From: Litoreibacter ascidiaceicola
GTDB taxonomy: Bacteria > Pseudomonadota > Alphaproteobacteria > Rhodobacterales > Rhodobacteraceae
Direction of reading: 5' to 3'
Assembly: GCF_900129235.1 (NCBI RefSeq)
Contig: NZ_FQUV01000001.1
Location: 1 to 64,000 of the forward strand
Length of the DNA stretch: 64,000 nucleotides
The notes under the pieces were generated by a model, which worked only from the letters and a program-made list of their open reading frames with translations, was not told the origin of the DNA and did not search any database. Positions 1-10,019 of this stretch are shown here, piece by piece (position 1 is the first letter of the stretch; each line of letters starts with the position of its first letter). The translations under genes and the position numbers were made by a program.

Positions 1-88
1 GCATTGCAGCCTCCAACGCAAGTTAACATGCTGTAATGTAACACAAAAAAACGGACAAACGAAGCTAAATCACGCGATCACTTGGGAA

Positions 89-754
89 ATGTGGGCTCGG
101 AAAACCGCGCCGCGAAAAGTCAACAGCCCTGTCCTCCTGACAGGGTTGGCCACATGCGCTAAATGCGGGTCCGGTTTGATACTTCGGACGGGCAAGAGCG
201 GGAGATATCGCTATTACACGTGCAGCACACAAGCGCGGAAAGGCAAATCAGTCTGCAAGGGTCAAAGTCTGCCTATGGCCGAGCTCGATGATTTGATTTC
301 GAACGTTGCCACTGAGGCTATTATCAACAGAGAGCATTGCGAAGGTGTTCTTTTGGAATTGGCCGAACGTAACGATGCTCGTGATTTTGAGGCACGAAGA
401 AGGTCAAATGAGCTGGCGCGTGAGAAATCCGATGCGGATAGCGCTGTTGCTCGGCTGTATCGGATGGTCGAGACGGGAATGGCCGACCTCGATGATCCGG
501 AATTTGTTGCCCGTTTCAAAAGGGTCAAAGATGAGCGTGATATCATTGCGGCCAAACTCGACCGTTTGGCGGTGCTCAAAAGCGAACGTATTTCCGTAAC
601 CCCTGATCAGCTTAACGAGTTCGCTGAATTTCTTAGTGCAAGGATTACCACGGGACCTATGACGTTCCGCAAATCTTACCTGCGCGCATTCATCGACGAA
701 GTCCGGGTCGATGGTGACAGGATCGAGATCATTCCCCGCTTTGAAGCCGCATAA
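89..754 (+). pseudogene. Serine site-specific recombinase, C-terminal remnant (zinc-ribbon and coiled-coil part)
   Basis: The protein has the zinc-ribbon of large serine recombinases: CAKC near residues 23-26, then TCST and VCKG, with the typical stretch LLTGLATC and RTGKSGRYRYYTCST. A charged coiled-coil region and a C-terminal tail follow (221 residues). The catalytic resolvase domain with its active serine and the main recombinase domain are absent. The frame stays open to the left edge of the window, but the translation before about position 95 does not look like this family, so the gene seems cut near there rather than merely continuing off the window. It is probably the broken recombinase of the island that carries the restriction genes. 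Family call is firm; whether an intact copy lies further left cannot be seen. Confidence 0.75.
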
Positions 755-811
755 TCATGTTCACGGTGTCGTGGGGGAGCCTGTGAACCCCACGAGCTCC
801 GCGGAACATGA
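755..811. repeat. Two-tier inverted repeat directly after the recombinase stop
   Basis: An outer pair of perfect 8-base arms (TCATGTTC at 755-762, GAACATGA at 804-811) encloses an inner perfect pair (TCGTGGGG at 769-776, CCCCACGA at 788-795). The structure begins at the base after the recombinase stop codon and has no T-run after it, so it is not a standard intrinsic terminator. It could be a recombination or attachment site remnant, or a transcript-stabilising hairpin. Confidence 0.5.
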
Positions 812-1032
812 TGTCGCACTAAAGAAAAAAACTAAGTCAGTTTCGAGTCGCCCTGAAAATTGTAGGCATGGACTCCGCCGAGCGCGGACAGCACGGCAAC
901 CTGTGTTATTTTATTTTACCGCTCTTGGAAGAGCTGCTCGCTGCCTGACGCGAGCGACGGTCAGCCGTTCTTCAGCTGGCTGCTTGTATGGGCTGACATT
1001 CACGTCGCGCCCAAAAACAAAGGGAAAGCATA

Positions 1033-1437
1033 ATGACCCAAAAATCAGTTGATGAATTAGCATACTCATGCTTGCGTCTGGGGCGCGCATTCGGCGAAGC
1101 ATGTGAGCTTACCAACATTGAGATGCCGCCGCATCTTGCCAAAGACTATCGCCGCCTACTGGAACGTCTATTGACGGGAGAAATTCTCTGCATCCAGGAG
1201 CTCGAGACAATCAAGGTGGTGGCACGTGCCCTTCGAACTTCGATGAACAAGAGAAGCCCCGGTTACGGCGATCATACTTTCCTGCGTCATACTGACGAAG
1301 ACATCATCTTCGACCGAGATCTCGAGCTAATGAGAAAGGCTGCTGAACGCTACAAGAGGCTCATAGAGGCCCACGAGGTGCTCAAGGACCGATTAACAGC
1401 GTTGAGTTGGGCTAATTTCAAGTTGGCACAAGCATAG
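1033..1437 (+). CDS. Hypothetical protein, 134 residues, mostly helical
   Basis: No family is recognised. The start ATG is preceded by an AAGGGAAAG purine stretch at a suitable distance. The product is soluble, has no signal peptide or membrane segment, and is rich in Leu, Arg and Glu with two long predicted helices (about residues 8-70 and 95-130). The composition is a plausible protein rather than a shadow of another gene, since nothing else is coded here. It sits alone between the recombinase remnant and the restriction genes, so it is probably island cargo; a DNA-binding or regulatory role for the neighbouring restriction genes is possible but nothing in the sequence proves it. Confidence 0.6.
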   Translation: MTQKSVDELAYSCLRLGRAFGEACELTNIEMPPHLAKDYRRLLERLLTGEILCIQELETIKVVARALRTSMNKRSPGYGDHTFLRHTDEDIIFDRDLELMRKAAERYKRLIEAHEVLKDRLTALSWANFKLAQA

Positions 1438-1782
1438 GCCGCTCGTAACTTCGCCAAGTCCCAAAAGGAAAATTTCTTGATGACCGCCACCGGCTTTTTC
1501 CGATGGCGGCATCGATGGACTGAAGGGAAAAAACCGGCCGAAATGTCAAAGATCGATGATCTTCAAGCTCAGGGATGGGCGTGGCTCGCCGGGACAATCT
1601 TGGCAAAGCTTGAACCGGACTGAAATTCCTTACTCGTCTCAGCAACGAACATACTCTGTTCCGTAGATTTTTCCGAATGCAGGTCAGGAATTTAGCGTCC
1701 ACTTCCTTCAATCACTGATTGCGCAAGGACGAGGTGGTCAATAGTCTGGTCTCAAACAAATAATTCAAAGAATTGAGCCAAC
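1438..1782. other. 345-base intergenic stretch before hsdM, possible 47-codon reading frame
   Basis: No known gene or RNA is visible. A short forward reading frame at 1480-1623 (ATG to TGA, 47 codons) has a purine-rich AAAAGGAAAA about ten bases upstream, and its last part (MSKIDDLQAQGWAWLAGTIL) reads like real protein. It is too short to trust. The stretch should also contain the promoter of the hsd operon, but no convincing -35/-10 pair stands out. Confidence 0.25.
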
Positions 1783-3315
1783 ATGCTGACAGGCGCCATC
1801 CGCACGCAAATCGATCAAATCTGGAACGCCTTCTGGTCTGGCGGAGTTTCCAACCCCTTGTCGGTCATCGAACAGCTGACTTTCCTGCTGTTCATCAAGC
1901 GCCTCGATGAGTTGCACACCAGGGAAGAAAGCAAAGCCGAGACACTTGGCATCGAGATGGAGCGCCGGATTTTCCCAGAAGGCAACGACCCCAAGGATGA
2001 GCCTTTCGAAAACCTCCGCTGGTCACGTTTCAAGAATTTTGAATCGCGAGAGATGATGCGCATCGTGGATGAACACGTTTTTCCCTTCCTGCGTGATCTG
2101 GGCGAACAGGGATCATCCTACGGCACCCACATGAAAGACGCGCGGCTTGGGTTTTCCAATCCGAACCTGCTCGCCAAAGTTGTTCAGATGCTCGACGAGA
2201 TCGACATGGACGACCGCGATACAAAGGGCGACGTGTTTGAATACATGCTCGGCAAGATCGCCAGCGCCGGCCAAAACGGCCAATTTCGCACACCGCGCCA
2301 CATCATCCAGCTGATGGTCCACCTGATGGCGCCCAAGCCGGCGGATACGATCTGCGACCCTGCGGCGGGCACCTGCGGCTTCCTTGTCGCGGCTGGGGAA
2401 TATCTGCGCGAAACGCACCCCGAATTGCTGCGCAACAAGGAACAACGCGACCACTTCCACAATACCATGTTCCACGGCTTTGACTTTGACAGCACCATGC
2501 TGCGCATCGGCGCGATGAACATGACGCTGCACGGGGTCGATAACCCTGACATTTCCTACCGCGACAGCCTGGCAGAGGAACACGGCGAAGACGAAGGCCG
2601 CTATTCCCTGATCCTTGCCAACCCGCCTTTTGCCGGATCGCTCGACTATGACACCACGGCCAAGGACCTGCTCAAGGTCGTGAAGACCAAAAAGACCGAG
2701 CTGCTGTTTGTCGCGCTTTTCCTGCGTCTTATGCGCACCGGCGGGCGGGCTGCGGTGGTTGTGCCTGATGGGGTGCTGTTCGGCTCCTCCAAGGCGCACA
2801 AGGACATCCGGCGCATGTTGGTAGAGGATCACCAGCTTGAAGCCATCATCAAGCTGCCCTCGGGCGTGTTCCGCCCCTATGCGGGCGTGTCCTGCGCCAT
2901 CGTGATCTTTACCAAGACCAACAGCGGCGGCACCGACAACGTCTGGTTTTATGACATGGCCGAGGACGGCTACACGCTGGACGACAAACGCACGCCCAAG
3001 CTGGATGAGGATAAGCTGGGCGTTACGGCAACGCTGACCGAAGAAGAGCACGCCAAGAACAACCTGCCGGACATTCTGGCGCGATGGGGCGAACTGGAGG
3101 CCGAGGCAGAGCGCCCCCGCACCGCGCAAAGCTTTATGGTGCCAGCCAAGGAGATCATCGCCACTGGCAGCTGGGACCTGTCCCTGAACCGTTACAAAGA
3201 GATCGAGCACGAAGAGGTCGAGCATGATGACCCCAAGGACATCATCGAGGAGTTGCGCAAGATCGAAGAAAAGATCGCCAAAGGGCTGGATAAGCTTGAG
3301 GGGATGCTTGGATGA
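1783..3315 (+). CDS. hsdM: Type I restriction-modification system, methyltransferase subunit HsdM
   Basis: N6-adenine DNA methyltransferase that, with HsdS, methylates the recognition site and forms the core of the type I restriction complex. Residues 1-150 are the helical HsdM N-terminal domain. The S-adenosylmethionine motif DPAAGTCGF lies at residues 192-200 and the catalytic NPPF at 280-283, both intact. Length (510 residues) is normal. The gene overlaps hsdS by four bases (ATGA at 3312-3315), showing translational coupling, and heads a cluster ending in hsdR. Base composition of this gene is noticeably more G+C-rich than that of the downstream island genes. There is no sign of damage, so the methyltransferase should be active. 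Confidence 0.97.
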   Translation: MLTGAIRTQIDQIWNAFWSGGVSNPLSVIEQLTFLLFIKRLDELHTREESKAETLGIEMERRIFPEGNDPKDEPFENLRWSRFKNFESREMMRIVDEHVFPFLRDLGEQGSSYGTHMKDARLGFSNPNLLAKVVQMLDEIDMDDRDTKGDVFEYMLGKIASAGQNGQFRTPRHIIQLMVHLMAPKPADTICDPAAGTCGFLVAAGEYLRETHPELLRNKEQRDHFHNTMFHGFDFDSTMLRIGAMNMTLHGVDNPDISYRDSLAEEHGEDEGRYSLILANPPFAGSLDYDTTAKDLLKVVKTKKTELLFVALFLRLMRTGGRAAVVVPDGVLFGSSKAHKDIRRMLVEDHQLEAIIKLPSGVFRPYAGVSCAIVIFTKTNSGGTDNVWFYDMAEDGYTLDDKRTPKLDEDKLGVTATLTEEEHAKNNLPDILARWGELEAEAERPRTAQSFMVPAKEIIATGSWDLSLNRYKEIEHEEVEHDDPKDIIEELRKIEEKIAKGLDKLEGMLG

Positions 3316-4424
3316 CGACTGCCCAATTTGTTCAGTTTCTTGACATCTGCGATATCCAAGGGGGAACACAGCCTCCAAAAAGCACTTTTATCGAAGAGCC
3401 AAACGAAGGTTATGTTCGCCTTTTGCAGATCCAAGACTTCAAAACCGATAAAAAAGCAGTCTATGTTCCGGACAAACAAACTCTTAAGAAGTGCACTGCT
3501 GACGACATTATGATCGCACGGTATGGGGCATCGCTCGGCAAAATACTGTCCGGTCTTGAAGGTGCTTACAATGTCGCGCTGGTCAAAACCATTCCCGACT
3601 TGGAACGATTAGACCGCGCCTACTTCGCACACTTCTTGCGAGCAGACGCATTTCAAAGCTTCATTCTCAATCTTGGCGGACGCGCCGCACAGGCTGGCTT
3701 TAACAAAGCCGACCTTGAACGGATCACAATACCCCTCCCGCCGCTGGAGGAGCAGAAGCGGATTGCGGGGATATTGGATCAGGCGGACACCCTGCGCCGC
3801 CTCCGCACCCGCGCCCTCGACAAACTTAACACCCTCGGCCAAGCGATCTTTCATGAGATGTTTGGTCCTCGCGCGCAGGATTGGGAATCTTGGCCAATAG
3901 TTCCGTTGGGTGAGTTGGCAGAAAATCTTGACGGCAAGCGTATCCCCTTGAAAAAGGCAGATCGTGAGAAGCGCAAGGGCAATGTCCCATACTACGGCGC
4001 TTCAGGAATAATTGATTTTGTCGATGAATTCTTGTTCGAAGGAACACATCTGCTTGTTGGTGAGGATGGTGCAAATCTTCTCGCTCGAAGCTCGCCAATA
4101 GCCTTCACGGCTGAAGGGAAATTTTGGGTAAATAACCATGCGCATGTTTTGCGTCCCAATGGCAGATCAGAATTACGATTTCTTCAGTATCACCTCGAGA
4201 GTATTGATTTGAAGCCGTTCGTAACTGGTAGCGCTCAACCCAAGTTAAACCAAAAACAACTAAATAGAATTCCAGTGAGGCTGCCGCCAAAGTCGCTCCA
4301 AAAGAAGTTCGTTGCTGCCTTAGATCAAAGGCGTTCGATAATCGGAACACAGGCGGGTTTGCTCAGTCAATCTGAAAAGCTCTTCGCCTCTCTCCAGCAC
4401 CGTGCCTTCCGAGGAGAACTCTGA
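3312..4424 (+). CDS. hsdS: Type I restriction-modification system, specificity subunit HsdS
   Basis: Determines the DNA sequence recognised by the type I enzyme. It has two target-recognition domains, about residues 1-138 and 188-340, joined by a conserved helical spacer at about 139-187 that contains PPLEEQKRIAGILDQADTLR. A second, weaker spacer copy (LPPKSLQKKFVAALDQRRS) lies near the C-terminus. Length (370 residues) is typical. The spacer is G+C-rich like hsdM, whereas both recognition domains are A+T-richer, the mosaic pattern expected when recognition domains are swapped by recombination. The start overlaps the hsdM stop; the next gene begins two bases after the stop. The recognised sequence cannot be predicted. 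Confidence 0.95.
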   Translation: MTTAQFVQFLDICDIQGGTQPPKSTFIEEPNEGYVRLLQIQDFKTDKKAVYVPDKQTLKKCTADDIMIARYGASLGKILSGLEGAYNVALVKTIPDLERLDRAYFAHFLRADAFQSFILNLGGRAAQAGFNKADLERITIPLPPLEEQKRIAGILDQADTLRRLRTRALDKLNTLGQAIFHEMFGPRAQDWESWPIVPLGELAENLDGKRIPLKKADREKRKGNVPYYGASGIIDFVDEFLFEGTHLLVGEDGANLLARSSPIAFTAEGKFWVNNHAHVLRPNGRSELRFLQYHLESIDLKPFVTGSAQPKLNQKQLNRIPVRLPPKSLQKKFVAALDQRRSIIGTQAGLLSQSEKLFASLQHRAFRGEL

Positions 4425-4426
4425 CT

Positions 4427-5260
4427 ATGAAGGGCGAGTTCCTACCCGTTTGGCCTGAGATGTGGCGTCGTGTTTGGAAGCCGCTTTCTGATCACCCCAA
4501 AGCGCCCGACGATCTTTTCGTTGAGCTTTTTCGAGAGTTGGAAACGGTGTTTGTCGACCGCCTCGATGCCGCAACGGAACTTGCCGCCATCGTTGATGAC
4601 GTGGATCAATCACGCGCGGCCTTTCGCGGCACGAAGTCAGCCCAGATCAAGGGCGAAGTTGCACTTGTTGCGTTTCTGACCGAAGCGTTCGACATCATTG
4701 AAGACTTCGGTGGCGACGCTCTGGCCAACCGCTATTTCAATTTGGTCGACGCGTTCATTGGACGTTATAGCGTGCGATATGATCTGCGGCGCTCTTTCCA
4801 GCTCAACCCAACGCTGCCTGGAATGTTTGCTCGACTGGTTAATGACCTTAAAAGCGCTGCATCTGCGGACCCAGCTCTGAGTGGTTTGCTCCGAGATTAT
4901 GAAGAGGCATTTGGTGACTTAGGGCATGGCGCGACCGAAGGGCGGATGGCGACATGTTTCAACAAGCAATTCAACCTTCTTGAGGCACTGGCTGCTTTGC
5001 ATCCGGAAGCGAAACAGAAGACGCTTGGAAAGATATGCGATGAATTGGACGTCTGGCCTCACGCCACCGTTCGAGAGGCGGCAAAAAAGGTATATGGGTT
5101 TCGCGCTTTCCCTGGTGTCGGCCACGGAGCAGGAAGCGGTGCGTTGCGACCAATTGAAATGAAAGACCTTGTTGCACTATCGGTGATGCTGACCGCCTTT
5201 GTCCCTTATGTCTCTGACAAGTTCAACGCAGATGTCATATACGCGGCGGGTGAAGCATGA
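4427..5260 (+). CDS. Unknown helical protein inside the type I restriction operon (tentatively Abi/HEPN-like)
   Basis: No family is firmly recognised. The 277-residue protein is soluble and largely helical. Its last 60 residues (FRAFPGVGHGAGSGALRP followed by a hydrophobic helix) resemble the C-terminal part of some abortive-infection proteins, in which a YPGIRH-like turn precedes a helix; this is a loose impression, not a domain assignment. It starts two bases after hsdS and overlaps the next gene by four bases (ATGA at 5257-5260), so it is translated with the restriction operon. A defence accessory or toxin-like role is inferred only from that location. Confidence 0.7.
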   Translation: MKGEFLPVWPEMWRRVWKPLSDHPKAPDDLFVELFRELETVFVDRLDAATELAAIVDDVDQSRAAFRGTKSAQIKGEVALVAFLTEAFDIIEDFGGDALANRYFNLVDAFIGRYSVRYDLRRSFQLNPTLPGMFARLVNDLKSAASADPALSGLLRDYEEAFGDLGHGATEGRMATCFNKQFNLLEALAALHPEAKQKTLGKICDELDVWPHATVREAAKKVYGFRAFPGVGHGAGSGALRPIEMKDLVALSVMLTAFVPYVSDKFNADVIYAAGEA

Positions 5261-6132
5261 ACGTCTTTTTCACCTACGTTTATGCCTCCCATGGCAAAGA
5301 CGACTTAGAAGGAGCCGTTAAAAAAATCGGCTGGCCTTTGACCTTTAGCAGCAAGAGCGGCAGGTCGATGGCCAGAAATATGGTCAAGGAAGGCGACATA
5401 GTCTTTGGCGTCGTGAGCAGTAGCCCAGGCCATGATGTGATCGTCCCTGAAGAATTCAAAGGGCGTGTGAAGTCCGCTTGGCAGGTTACGCGGCAAAACG
5501 CTTTGCTTACGGACTACAAGGTCAATGCAACGGACTGGGACCTGCAGTGGCCTTATGCTCTTCAACCTATTCGAACATGGGAAATTCTGGATGCGCCGCT
5601 TTTTCGTGAGCTTGATGGATATGATGCGAAAACCCACACACTGAAGTCGGTCAGTTCAGTTGAACACGTGAACGAGGAACTCGCCGGTAGCCTGCTTGGC
5701 ATCATGAAAGCGCAAGGCAACGAAATCCCAATGGCTGAGTTTCGTTTCACATCGATGCAGCAACGGAACCTGGCTTTGCGTCAGAAACACCCAGTTCGAA
5801 TTGAGGGGTATAGCGTCGAGCCTATCGACAGTGACGAATTGAACTACGTCTACATAGCGACACTGGGCAAGGGCACCAAAAACCTGAAAATTGGTCATTC
5901 TTCCACCCCGAACGAACGTGTCGAGCATTTCAATAAATACCGGCTCAGCGATGAAAAACAATGGCAGCTCCATACCGCACAGCCAATGGGTTCAGTGCAG
6001 AATGCGGTCAAAGCCGAGGCGACTTTAGGCGAAGTGTTCGCCAAGTTTCGCACCGAGGTGAACAACAATGAAATCTATGTCGGCCTGGACGCCATGGATG
6101 TCTTGGCGAGGTTGGCGACGATGAGAGGGTAA
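5257..6132 (+). CDS. Protein with C-terminal T5orf172/GIY-YIG-like domain and possible EVE/PUA-like N-terminus
   Basis: The C-terminal third (about residues 198-291) fits the T5orf172 group of GIY-YIG-related nuclease domains: YVYIATLG, then LKIGHS with PNERVEHFN, then a conserved Glu in KAEATLGEVFAKFR and a terminal EIYVG. The N-terminal half has GDIVFGVVSS followed by a W-rich stretch (WDLQWPYALQPIRTWEI), reminiscent of EVE/PUA-like folds that read modified bases; this part is tentative. The gene is coupled to its upstream neighbour by a four-base overlap and lies between hsdS and hsdR. A modification-dependent nuclease accompanying the type I enzyme would fit. Catalysis has not been shown for this family as a whole. 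Confidence 0.65.
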   Translation: MNVFFTYVYASHGKDDLEGAVKKIGWPLTFSSKSGRSMARNMVKEGDIVFGVVSSSPGHDVIVPEEFKGRVKSAWQVTRQNALLTDYKVNATDWDLQWPYALQPIRTWEILDAPLFRELDGYDAKTHTLKSVSSVEHVNEELAGSLLGIMKAQGNEIPMAEFRFTSMQQRNLALRQKHPVRIEGYSVEPIDSDELNYVYIATLGKGTKNLKIGHSSTPNERVEHFNKYRLSDEKQWQLHTAQPMGSVQNAVKAEATLGEVFAKFRTEVNNNEIYVGLDAMDVLARLATMRG

Positions 6133-6228
6133 GGCTGTGACTTGTGGTGAACGCTTATGGCAAGACAATGATTATTGGATTGTGGACAATTTTCCACCGT
6201 TCTTGTGAATTATTTTGGGTGAATTGAT

Positions 6229-9200
6229 ATGAGCCAATTTCAGTTTCTTTCGGAAGAATTTCCCAATCTCTTGGGGCCTGCGCAAAAGGCGGAGGCCGCT
6301 GCGCTGTCGGACCCACGTGGCGCATGTTTTTATTAGCGACTGACGCTTGAGATCGCATTGAAGTGGCTCTATCGACGCGACCCAGCGTTGCGAAATCCTT
6401 ATGATCGCACGCTGGCGGCGCTGATCGCTGAACCGACTCTTGAGAAGCTCGCTGGGCCGAAGATTGTAACTAAAGCGCGCTACATCAAAGACCAGGGCAA
6501 CCGTGCCGCGCACGACAGCGCCAAAAAAATCAGTCCGCAGGATGCGGCCACAACAGTCCGAGAACTCTTTCATGTTTGTTACTGGATCGCGCGGACCTAC
6601 GCGACCGGTGCCAAGCCCAATCCGGCTCTGACGTTTGATATTGGGAAGCTGGAAAAGACGCTAACCATCACTGCGAGCACCGTGCAGCAGATCAAAGACC
6701 TCGGTGACAAGCATTCAGCGGCTCAGAAGGCCTTGGAAGCTGCAGAAGAGGCCCGCAGAGCCTCCGAGGATGGCAGAAAGGCACTTGAAGAGGAATTGGC
6801 CCGTCTGCGCGCTGAAGTGGCTGCTGCGCGCTCAGCGAACCAAGCCGTCACCGACGATCATGACTACAATGAAGCCGCAACCCGAGATGCATTTATCGAT
6901 CTACTGCTGGCTGAAGCAGGGTGGCCGCTTGATCAGGAGCGAGACCGTGAATTTCCAGTTCAGGGGATGCCGAGCCAGTCGGGTGACGGGTTTGTCGATT
7001 ACGTGCTTTGGGGGGACGACGGCAAACCATTGGCAGTTGTTGAAGCAAAGCGAACCAAGAAAGATAGCCGAACTGGGCAACAGCAAGCCAAACTCTATGC
7101 CGACTGTCTTGAAAGGATGTATGGCCGGAGACCGGTGATATTCACGACGAATGGCTACGATCATTGGGTCTGGGATGATCAAATGTATCCGCCAAGGCAA
7201 GTCTCAGGGTTCTTGAAAAAGGATGAACTGGTTCTGCTTCATCAACGTCGCGGCACTCGCAAGCCACTTGGAAAAATCAACGTCGATGAAGATATCGCTG
7301 GTCGGTTCTACCAACAGCGTGCGATTCGACGCGTTGGAGAAGCGTTTGAAAAAGACCGTCAACGCAAGGCACTGCTTGTTATGGCTACCGGAAGCGGGAA
7401 AACGCGGACCGTCATCGCATTGATTGATCAGCTCATGCGCGCAAACTGGGTGCGTCGAGTTCTGTTTCTTGCTGACCGAGTCGCCTTGGTCAAACAAGCG
7501 CACGGAGCTTTCAAGACGCACATGCCATCAGCGCCCAGTGCGAACCTCCTGGAAAAGCATGATCCGGCGAAAAATGACCATGCAGGTGCAAGGGTGTTTT
7601 TGTCGACTTACCCTACTATGATGGGCTTGATCGATGAAGTTAAAGGCGGCGAGAAACGTTTTGGACCCGGTCATTTTGATCTGATCGTCATCGATGAAGC
7701 GCACCGATCAGTATACCGAAAATACCGCGCAATTTTTGAATACTTTGACAGCCTTCTGATCGGGCTTACCGCGACCCCACGAGACGAAATCGACCGTGAC
7801 ACATACTCGCTTTTCCAGCTGGAGCGAGGTGTGCCGACAGACGCTTACGATCTGGACGATGCGGTGGCTGATGGATTTCTTGTCCCCCCCAAGTCGATAT
7901 CGGTGCCTCTGAAATTTCAACGCGACGGCATAGAGTATGATCAACTCTCTGAAGAAGAAAAAGACGAGTGGGACAATCTCGAATGGGATGAGGAAGGTAG
8001 CATCCCTGACCGCGTTGACTCTTCGGATCTGAACAAATGGCTGTTCAACAAGGATACCGTCGACAAGGTCCTAAAGCACTTGATGGAGAACGGCATCAAA
8101 GTTGCCGGAGGTGATAGGCTCGGCAAAACAATCGTCTTCGCAAAGAGCAGCAGACACGCCCAATTCATCGTTGAGAGATTCAATCAAAATTACCCGCACT
8201 ACGAAGGAAAATTTGCGCAATTGGTCGACTACAGCGTGTCCTATGCTCAGTCACTGATCGATGATTTTTCGGAAGCGGAAAAGGCGCCTCACATCGCTGT
8301 TTCTGTCGACATGATGGACACGGGGATCGACGTCCCGGAAGTCGTAAACCTCGTGTTTTTCAAAATCGTCCGGTCAAAAACGAAGTTTTGGCAAATGGTC
8401 GGCCGTGGAACCCGTTTATCGCCTGACTTGTTTGGGCCCAATGAGGACAAGGAAGAATTTCTGATTTTCGACTTTTGTCAAAACTTGGAATTTTTCCGCG
8501 AAAACCCTGCGGCTATCGATGCCCCAGTTGCTCGTCCAATCGGTGAGCGGCTGTTCGTGACGAGAGTTGAGCTCGTTGGTGCACTTCAATCCGCGGATGA
8601 GCCACATGTGGCTATTCTTTCCGATGTAAAGACGCGTCTATTTGACGAGGTTCGTGGGATGAACTTGGAAAATTTCTTAGTCCGGTCGAAGCGACGTTCT
8701 GTAGAAAAGTTCCAAAAGCCAGAGAGCTGGGATGCGATCGATCTCGACGCCCGAATTACGCTCAACGAAGAAATTGCAGGACTGCCTACGTCTTTTGAAG
8801 ATGACCCTCTGCCGGCCAAGCAATTTGATCTTCTTATATTGAACGCCCAGCTGCTTTTGCTTCAGGGCGACGCCGAATTTTCCGCTCTTCAGCGTCGGAT
8901 CATTAAGTTCGCCTCTGCGTTGGAGACACTTTCGAATGTTCCAGTCGTAGCAAGAGAAATGCCATTGATTCTGGACGTTCAGACCGATGATTTTTGGACT
9001 GATGTTACGATCGAAATTCTCGAAGATATTCGGAAACGCCTGCGTTTATTGGCGGGTCTGATTAAGCCTACAGAACGCAAGGTCGTGATCACTGACTTCG
9101 AAGACGAGATAGGAAGTGGCGACGAGATCTCGCTGCCGGAGGTCGGAACCGGCTTCGATAAAGCACGCTTTAAGATGAAAGTCCGCCGATTCATCGATGA

Positions 9201-9624
9201 TCATGCAGATCATATAGCTCTCCAAAAAATTCGTCGCGGCCGCCCCATCACTCAGCAAGACCTTGATGAACTTGAAGCGATGTTAGTGGAGCTTGGGGTT
9301 TCGGATCGAGAAGAGTTGGAAGAAATAGAAAATTCTGTAGGGCTGGCCGGTTTCTTACGTCAATTGACGGGATTGGACCGAGCGGCCGCAAAAGAAGCTT
9401 TTTCCGAGTTTGCTTCGGAGAATTCGTTGTCAGCAGATCAAAGTGAGTTCATGGATTTGCTTGTAGATTTCTTGACGGAAAACGGAACTGTTGACCCGAG
9501 ATTGTTTTACGAAAGCCCTTTCACTGACATTGACGATATGGGCGTCGTAGGGGTCTTTCGTAAACCTCAAATACGAGAGCTTATCGAGATCGTTGAACGT
9601 TTGAACCAAGTCGTTGCGTCCTGA
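6229..9624 (+). pseudogene. hsdR: Type I restriction enzyme, HsdR subunit, interrupted by an amber codon at codon 36
   Basis: The motor and nuclease subunit of the type I enzyme. An in-frame start at 6229 gives the expected family N-terminus (FLSEEFPNLLGPAQKAE, then GACFY), but codon 36 is TAG (6334-6336); the frame then continues as RLTLEIALKWLYRRD without any further defect to 9624. Numbered on the full frame, the nuclease motif is D257...E272-A-K274, Walker A ATGSGKT is 386-392, DEAH is 489-492, and the helicase VGRGTR motif follows. A coiled-coil rich in Ala and Glu lies near residues 165-210. Restart at the TTG at 6358 would lose 43 residues. The stop may be a real mutation, a suppressible codon or a sequencing error. 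Confidence 0.9.
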
Positions 9625-9718
9625 TCTGTCAAAAAACGGGCGACACTTCAGGGCGGATTCCTCAAACTGGAAGTTGATAAGTAATCCTTTGACCTGAACA
9701 AGAGTTTTTGATCCAACA
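9625..9718. other. Short A+T-rich gap after hsdR
   Basis: No gene, clear hairpin terminator or repeat is visible between the hsdR stop and the truncated fragment on the opposite strand. Confidence 0.3.
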
Positions 9719-10019
9719 TCAGTTGGCTTCTCTGAGTAAGAGGCGCCGGATGGCGCGATCTACTGCGACGAATGCTTGCTGCTTACTTACTCCGGTTTCG
9801 ACAAGAACTTGATTGCGAATATCCATTCGGAATTCCGCCAGTTTGCTCGGTTCGAATTCTTCCCTTCGAAGTTCTACGAGCTCTTCAGCACGACGACGCT
9901 GCGGAGATAATGAAGCTCCCCTGCGGTCCGACCAAGGAAAAGGTCCCTTTATTTCAATAGTATAGAGGTGCCCACTTTTATCTCGATTGGCCCGCCACTT
10001 TAGCTTCCAGTTTACGTTA
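9719..10019 (-). pseudogene. Truncated hypothetical reading frame abutting the 3' end of gloB
   Basis: The minus-strand frame gives about 97 plausible residues (NVNWKLKWRANRDKSGHLYT to the C-terminus RAIRRLLLREAN). No start codon is present between the gloB stop and the first credible residue; further upstream the frame runs into gloB, where the translation is only a shadow of that gene. The fragment therefore seems to have lost its 5' end at the junction with gloB. No family is recognised. It is A+T-richer than gloB and probably belongs to the island. It may alternatively be non-coding. Confidence 0.4.

Follow-up and report, generated by a model that had tools for sequence, protein, structure and literature searches.

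The closest described precedent for the locus reported here is Staphylococcus aureus RN4220, whose Sau1 type I system is defective through a premature hsdR stop, as passages of one report describe (PMC5399793). Parts of another report describe truncated hsdR in type I systems of natural Staphylococcus epidermidis isolates (PMC6918075); in strains ATCC 12228 and 14.1.R1, on that account, hsdM is missing too, whereas hsdM and hsdS are both full length here. A third paper (PMC7557576) was set aside as a precedent, since those of its passages that deal with stop codons concern hsdS. RN4220 is Gram-positive and has a different HsdR, while the present stop lies at codon 36 of an island-borne locus in an alphaproteobacterium, Litoreibacter ascidiaceicola. 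Beside these cases, the interruption is unremarkable as gene losses go and has good precedent.

In architecture the nearest relatives are EcoEI-like HsdR proteins with a DUF4145 (HEPN) domain. Passages of PMC3710099 count DUF4145 among the HEPN families and describe proteins that join it to REase and SF-II helicase modules, as well as HEPN domains fused to EcoEI-like helicases. The protein examined here has the same domains (DUF4145, HSDR_N, ResIII, Helicase_C and EcoEI_R_C), but its gene, unlike theirs, is interrupted.

The window, by which we mean the whole stretch of DNA analyzed, comprises the first 64 kb of contig C7 in a 3.74 Mb genome of 22 contigs that is rated 99.98% complete and 0.03% contaminated. 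Five genes of a type I locus, all on the forward strand, occupy positions 1783-9624 in the order hsdM, hsdS, accessory gene, T5orf172 gene and hsdR. The features are as follows.

2-754, forward strand: serine recombinase C-terminus (Zn_ribbon_recom) where the contig begins; part of the island
1783-3315, forward strand: hsdM, N6 DNA methylase, 510 amino acids, full length
3312-4424, forward strand: hsdS, specificity subunit, 370 amino acids, full length, two Methylase_S stretches
4427-5260, forward strand: accessory gene between hsdS and hsdR, 277 amino acids
5257-6132, forward strand: T5orf172 (GIY-YIG-like) gene directly 5′ of hsdR
6229-6333, forward strand: 5′ part of hsdR, 35 codons; helix 1 and the start of helix 2 of the DUF4145/HEPN-like domain
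6334-6336, forward strand: in-frame TAG, codon 36; alanine in homologues, rarely serine, glycine or threonine
6337-9624, forward strand: rest of hsdR, with the remaining DUF4145, a long helix, the HSDR_N nuclease, ResIII, Helicase_C and EcoEI_R_C
6358-6360, forward strand: TTG, codon 44, first possible in-frame restart after the amber codon
9991-9992, no strand: right island end; similarity to an island-free relative (G001) begins at 9992

The hsdR frame opens at ATG 6229-6231 with the residues MSQFQFLSEEFPNLLGPAQKAEAAALSDPRGACFY, meets the in-frame TAG, and then resumes as RLTLEIALKWLYRRD..., remaining open for 1,095 codons to a stop at 9622-9624. Residues ahead of the TAG align with the equivalent stretch of HsdR homologues, and the frame 3′ of it can be aligned over its whole length with HsdR proteins, at up to 82% identity. 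Because both sides align with homologues, the frame is not a chance one. Downstream of the TAG, HSDR_N, ResIII, Helicase_C and EcoEI_R_C all score above their Pfam cut-offs; the match to EcoEI_R_C (83.5 bits against a cut-off of 24) indicates that the C-terminal domain of EcoEI-like HsdR is present. The portion after TTG 6358 falls below the cut-off of the EcoAI/FtnUII HsdR equivalog NF046051 of NCBIfam (269.5 against 550 bits). In full-length numbering, there is a PD-D/ExK-like stretch at residues 257-274, GSGKT at 388, DEAH at 489 and GRGTR at 725, which we take to be the nuclease and helicase motifs of HsdR. The nuclease and SF2 translocase domains are thus present, but the TAG interrupts the frame between them and the family start. 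The amber stretch occurs once, identically, in its own assembly, which rests on the same data and so gives no independent read check.

A preliminary description of this DNA had reported a single amber codon splitting hsdR after a family-like N-terminus, with about 1,095 open codons and the nuclease and helicase motifs retained beyond it. Its coordinates for the ATG and the TAG proved exact, and the other elements were recovered as well. In our judgment, made from sequence, hsdR here is probably a nonsense allele that arose recently in an acquired type I system with an EcoEI-like HsdR; methylation is predicted to be on and restriction off. The hsdM-hsdS-accessory-T5orf172-hsdR locus is carried by an island that adjoins the 3′ end of a tRNA-Ser(CGA) gene. 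In the proposed course of events, translation of hsdR would end after 35 residues, leaving little or no HsdR; HsdM2S would keep methylating its target, and restriction would be off or strongly reduced. Because no gene of the set follows hsdR, the stop should exert no polar effect on hsdM or hsdS. The state foreseen earlier, in which the locus still methylates but restricts less or not at all, agrees with the early stop and with the full-length hsdM and hsdS.

HsdM matches N6_Mtase (197.9 bits) and HsdM_N (67.3 bits) above the Pfam cut-offs and contains DPAAGT and NPPF; it stays below the cut-off of the NCBIfam hsdM equivalog TIGR00497 (65.3 against 242.75). HsdS matches Methylase_S at 125 bits in its two stretches, which points to two target recognition domains. 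Methylation activity of HsdM is likely, judging from these matches, but not assured, because 23 relatives agree at 270 columns and the protein differs from them at five of these (a count that has no leave-one-out control), three times with an unlike residue (A394E, L406K and A489E).

The gene at 4427-5260 has no match in Pfam, NCBIfam or PADLOC. Homologues accompany 15 of 100 related hsdR loci, a minimum because many flanks are short, and R117, Y118, D119, R121, R122 and H233 are invariant in 13 aligned sequences, several of them partial. Its protein was modeled with a mean pLDDT of 71.5. The gene appears to be a conserved restriction-linked accessory. The complete five-gene order, including T5orf172, recurs at one of 100 loci, that of Tateyamaria omphalii (L038; 64% identity).

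The residue that the family carries at the amber codon was read from homologues in two ways. A genome scan kept 80 HsdR relatives of 264 confirmed, and among 394 genomes of the family 19 others gave matches, several of which look like the same genes as those of the scan. For 68 of the 80 loci the upstream sequence was read without any motif requirement, the other 12 being mostly matches whose first aligned residue is not residue 1. The N-terminal stretch is there in every one of the 68, and the amber column holds alanine in 61, serine in five, glycine in one and threonine in one. A motif search whose pattern demands the N-terminal stretch covered 101 loci (L032-L131 and L003). It left 85 readable and missed 16, where the contig or match stops short of the position or the pattern was too strict; L066, L103 and L111 were missed in this way, though they have alanine in the motif-free reading. 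The distant loci L125-L129 (38-40% identity) lie outside the reading of this position.

The alignment of homologues at this codon, which the preliminary description had recommended, gave alanine in 75, serine in seven, glycine in two and threonine in one of the 85 readable loci, and neither glutamine nor a stop in any of them. The C-to-T change from CAG that it had offered as the origin of the stop is not supported, because the column holds no glutamine and the nearest relatives have alanine, and we have rejected it. These relatives come from a tree of 33 N-terminal halves, where the window groups with Tritonibacter aquimaris L032 and Pseudophaeobacter L057 at modest support (85/79); both have an alanine codon, from which TAG is two substitutions away. 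It is one substitution from a serine codon such as that of L042 and L058. A natural later start of HsdR, which the preliminary description had named as counter-evidence, was likewise rejected: no homologue starting after the TAG was seen in the 68 loci (of 80) read upstream without a motif. The 85 rows of the motif search cannot bear on this point, because their pattern itself demanded the N-terminal stretch.

The stop falls within a folded domain. With the stop read as alanine, residues 20-111 match DUF4145 at 37.6 bits, whereas the sequence from TTG 6358 onward scores 22.0 bits, under the cut-off of 23.1, and covers profile positions 41-85 of 88. A structure model of residues 1-210 built from 39 aligned sequences is all helical (mean pLDDT 90.0, pTM 0.68) and places both the stop and the TTG inside helix 2 (residues 29-50). 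Around the stop, D28, R30, C33, F34, R37, L40 and E41 are identical in all 38 relatives chosen for alignment. A fold search with the N-terminal model returned nothing at E ≤ 0.001, its two best matches being HEPN proteins at E values of 0.19 and 0.31. The likeness to HEPN domains therefore rests mainly on the DUF4145 match and on the literature (PMC3710099). The same 38 relatives all have a GNxAxH motif (window 6496-6513, residues 90-95, placed by eye), with glycine where HEPN RNases carry arginine. This suggests that the HEPN domain of this HsdR branch is non-catalytic, and a role as an RNase is doubtful.

The remainder of hsdR shows little sign of decay. The comparison used 82 full-length rows including that of the window, with the short rows L058, L122 and L130 left out; 38 other rows are more than 60% identical to the window, and 32 of these remained after removal of near-duplicates. 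Among 370 columns invariant in these 32 relatives, the window departs at one (leucine to isoleucine at 837), and leave-one-out treatment of the other HsdR rows gave between 0 and 18 departures. Because of this single departure the stop looks young, and it is probably recent, as the preliminary description had thought plausible. Decay appears hardly to have begun, a pattern that a young stop and a still-used shortened protein would fit equally. Analysis of dN/dS yielded no date for the stop, as synonymous sites are saturated between the window and the relatives compared, and no clear relaxation was seen in the 35 codons ahead of it. A broken gene of the same family occurs in Phaeobacter sp. J2-8 (L058, match 6001-9250), where hsdR is disrupted near codon 307 and matches in two frames. 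This is one of 83 motif-search rows that could be traced to a stop, and two rows ran off their contigs. Breakage of hsdR is uncommon, but not unique.

The alternative that survives best is that translation resumes at TTG 6358 or further downstream and yields a shortened HsdR, leaving restriction reduced rather than lost, and we regard it as unlikely. The TTG is in frame 21 bases past the stop, the nuclease and helicase domains lie wholly 3′ of it, and the near-perfect agreement with the invariant columns would be expected of a protein in use. Restart would, however, remove helix 1, most of helix 2 and the best-conserved motif of the DUF4145/HEPN-like domain, identical in the 38 chosen relatives; it would keep the nuclease and helicase yet break this domain. 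The N-terminal stretch is retained by all 68 loci that were read upstream. Moreover, the corresponding column in relatives (valine 21, leucine 10, methionine 4, isoleucine 3) indicates no conserved start codon. The predicted Shine-Dalgarno pairing of the TTG (-2.7 kcal/mol) falls in the range typical of 1,000 randomly chosen positions (median -2.2, lower quarter -3.3), although that of the native ATG is also weak (-3.7). Because the TTG is unremarkable and the ATG little better, initiation signals do not decide the matter. The preliminary description had allowed for rescue from this TTG, and the proposal emerges weakened by the ordinary Shine-Dalgarno and the loss of conserved helices, with the similarly poor native signal speaking in its defense. 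A further elaboration, that the stop uncouples HsdR from its HEPN-like domain and that low-level restart supplies a tuned-down or differently controlled enzyme under selection, strikes us as very unlikely.

It is quite unlikely that the gene is really intact and that sequencing or assembly produced a false TAG. Such an error would account for a lone lesion in 3.4 kb, for an allele known from one genome and for the conservation of the remaining hsdR. Against this, the lesion is a clean in-frame codon rather than an indel, the genome is rated as nearly complete and almost free of contamination, and two wrong bases would be needed starting from alanine as in the nearest relatives, or one from a codon a single step away.

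Read-through by a suppressor tRNA or a programmed mechanism is barely credible: the frame does continue cleanly past the TAG and the set of tRNAs read is incomplete, but none of the 35 different anticodons among 39 tRNA matches is CTA, TAG closes 9 of the window's 42 long open frames as an ordinary stop would, and no homologue has a stop at this position. The list also lacks tRNA-Tyr, tRNA-Ile and tRNA-Ala(TGC), so the suppression envisaged in the preliminary description is weakened by the missing CTA anticodon to the extent that such a list allows. Searches for tRNA-Tyr or an amber suppressor with an anticodon-arm pattern, a T-loop pattern and the tRNA-Tyr of a relative gave nothing usable and were insensitive; the anticodon-arm pattern reached tRNA-Tyr in one of 21 genus genomes (G012), and one empty tRNA-Tyr search had no positive control, so that these misses show little. 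With a pattern of that sensitivity, tRNA-Tyr was not found even in this 99.98%-complete assembly.

The preferred reading, a recent nonsense allele in an acquired system, agrees with the setting of the locus. A same-genus relative (G001) has in one continuous run what the genome studied here has on two contigs: C11 as far as 595414, shortly after tRNA-Ser(CGA), and C7 onward from window position 9992. The left flank was compared in this relative alone, and on the right the similarity starts at about the same place in three others (G011, G003 and G008). The island, made up of window positions 1-9991 and the C11 stretch, is thus split over two contig ends, with the sequence between them unassembled, and contains several serine-recombinase-like frames. 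Past the tRNA (C11 595415-598665), frames of 575 and 342 amino acids resemble a large serine recombinase by eye. G+C content is 0.52 in window positions 1-9991 and 0.585 in the rest of the window, with hsdM alone (0.58) close to the latter. No hsdR orthologue was found in the 20 same-genus genomes: 19 have no match, three of these being less than 90% complete, and G003 has two matches at 32-34% identity that are not orthologous. Most simply, the hsdR locus is island cargo gained by transfer at the 3′ end of tRNA-Ser(CGA), in line with the horizontal transfer that the preliminary description had suggested. A search of a plasmid collection returned five records, the best of which cover no more than 21% of the query, and hence there is no near plasmid copy in that collection. 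Viral contigs hold two relatives at 55% identity.

This would be a further natural example of a type I system that, after its transfer on an island, probably retains only the methylating half of its function. Foreign DNA may enter the strain more easily than the gene list would lead one to expect, and a bipartite type I methylation motif should still be present in the genome. Where a gene caller places the start at TTG 6358, HsdR would be reported as nearly complete, and the lesion could go unnoticed.

Elsewhere in the assembly, at C22 109850-110100, positions 105-155 or so of the extracted locus (L207) hold a tRNA-like 3′ fragment with an anticodon arm, a T arm and CCA by eye; it has no Rfam or ARAGORN match and perhaps marks another integration site. 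In the tree of hsdR genes, a sequence from a Verrucomicrobia metagenome-assembled genome (L047) shares 98% identity with the row closest to it and clusters with Celeribacter L046 and Lutimaribacter L097, a placement for which mis-binning or transfer is a possible cause. Three Acetobacteraceae copies (L045, L050 and L055) nest within the rhodobacteral hsdR tree, indicating transfer.
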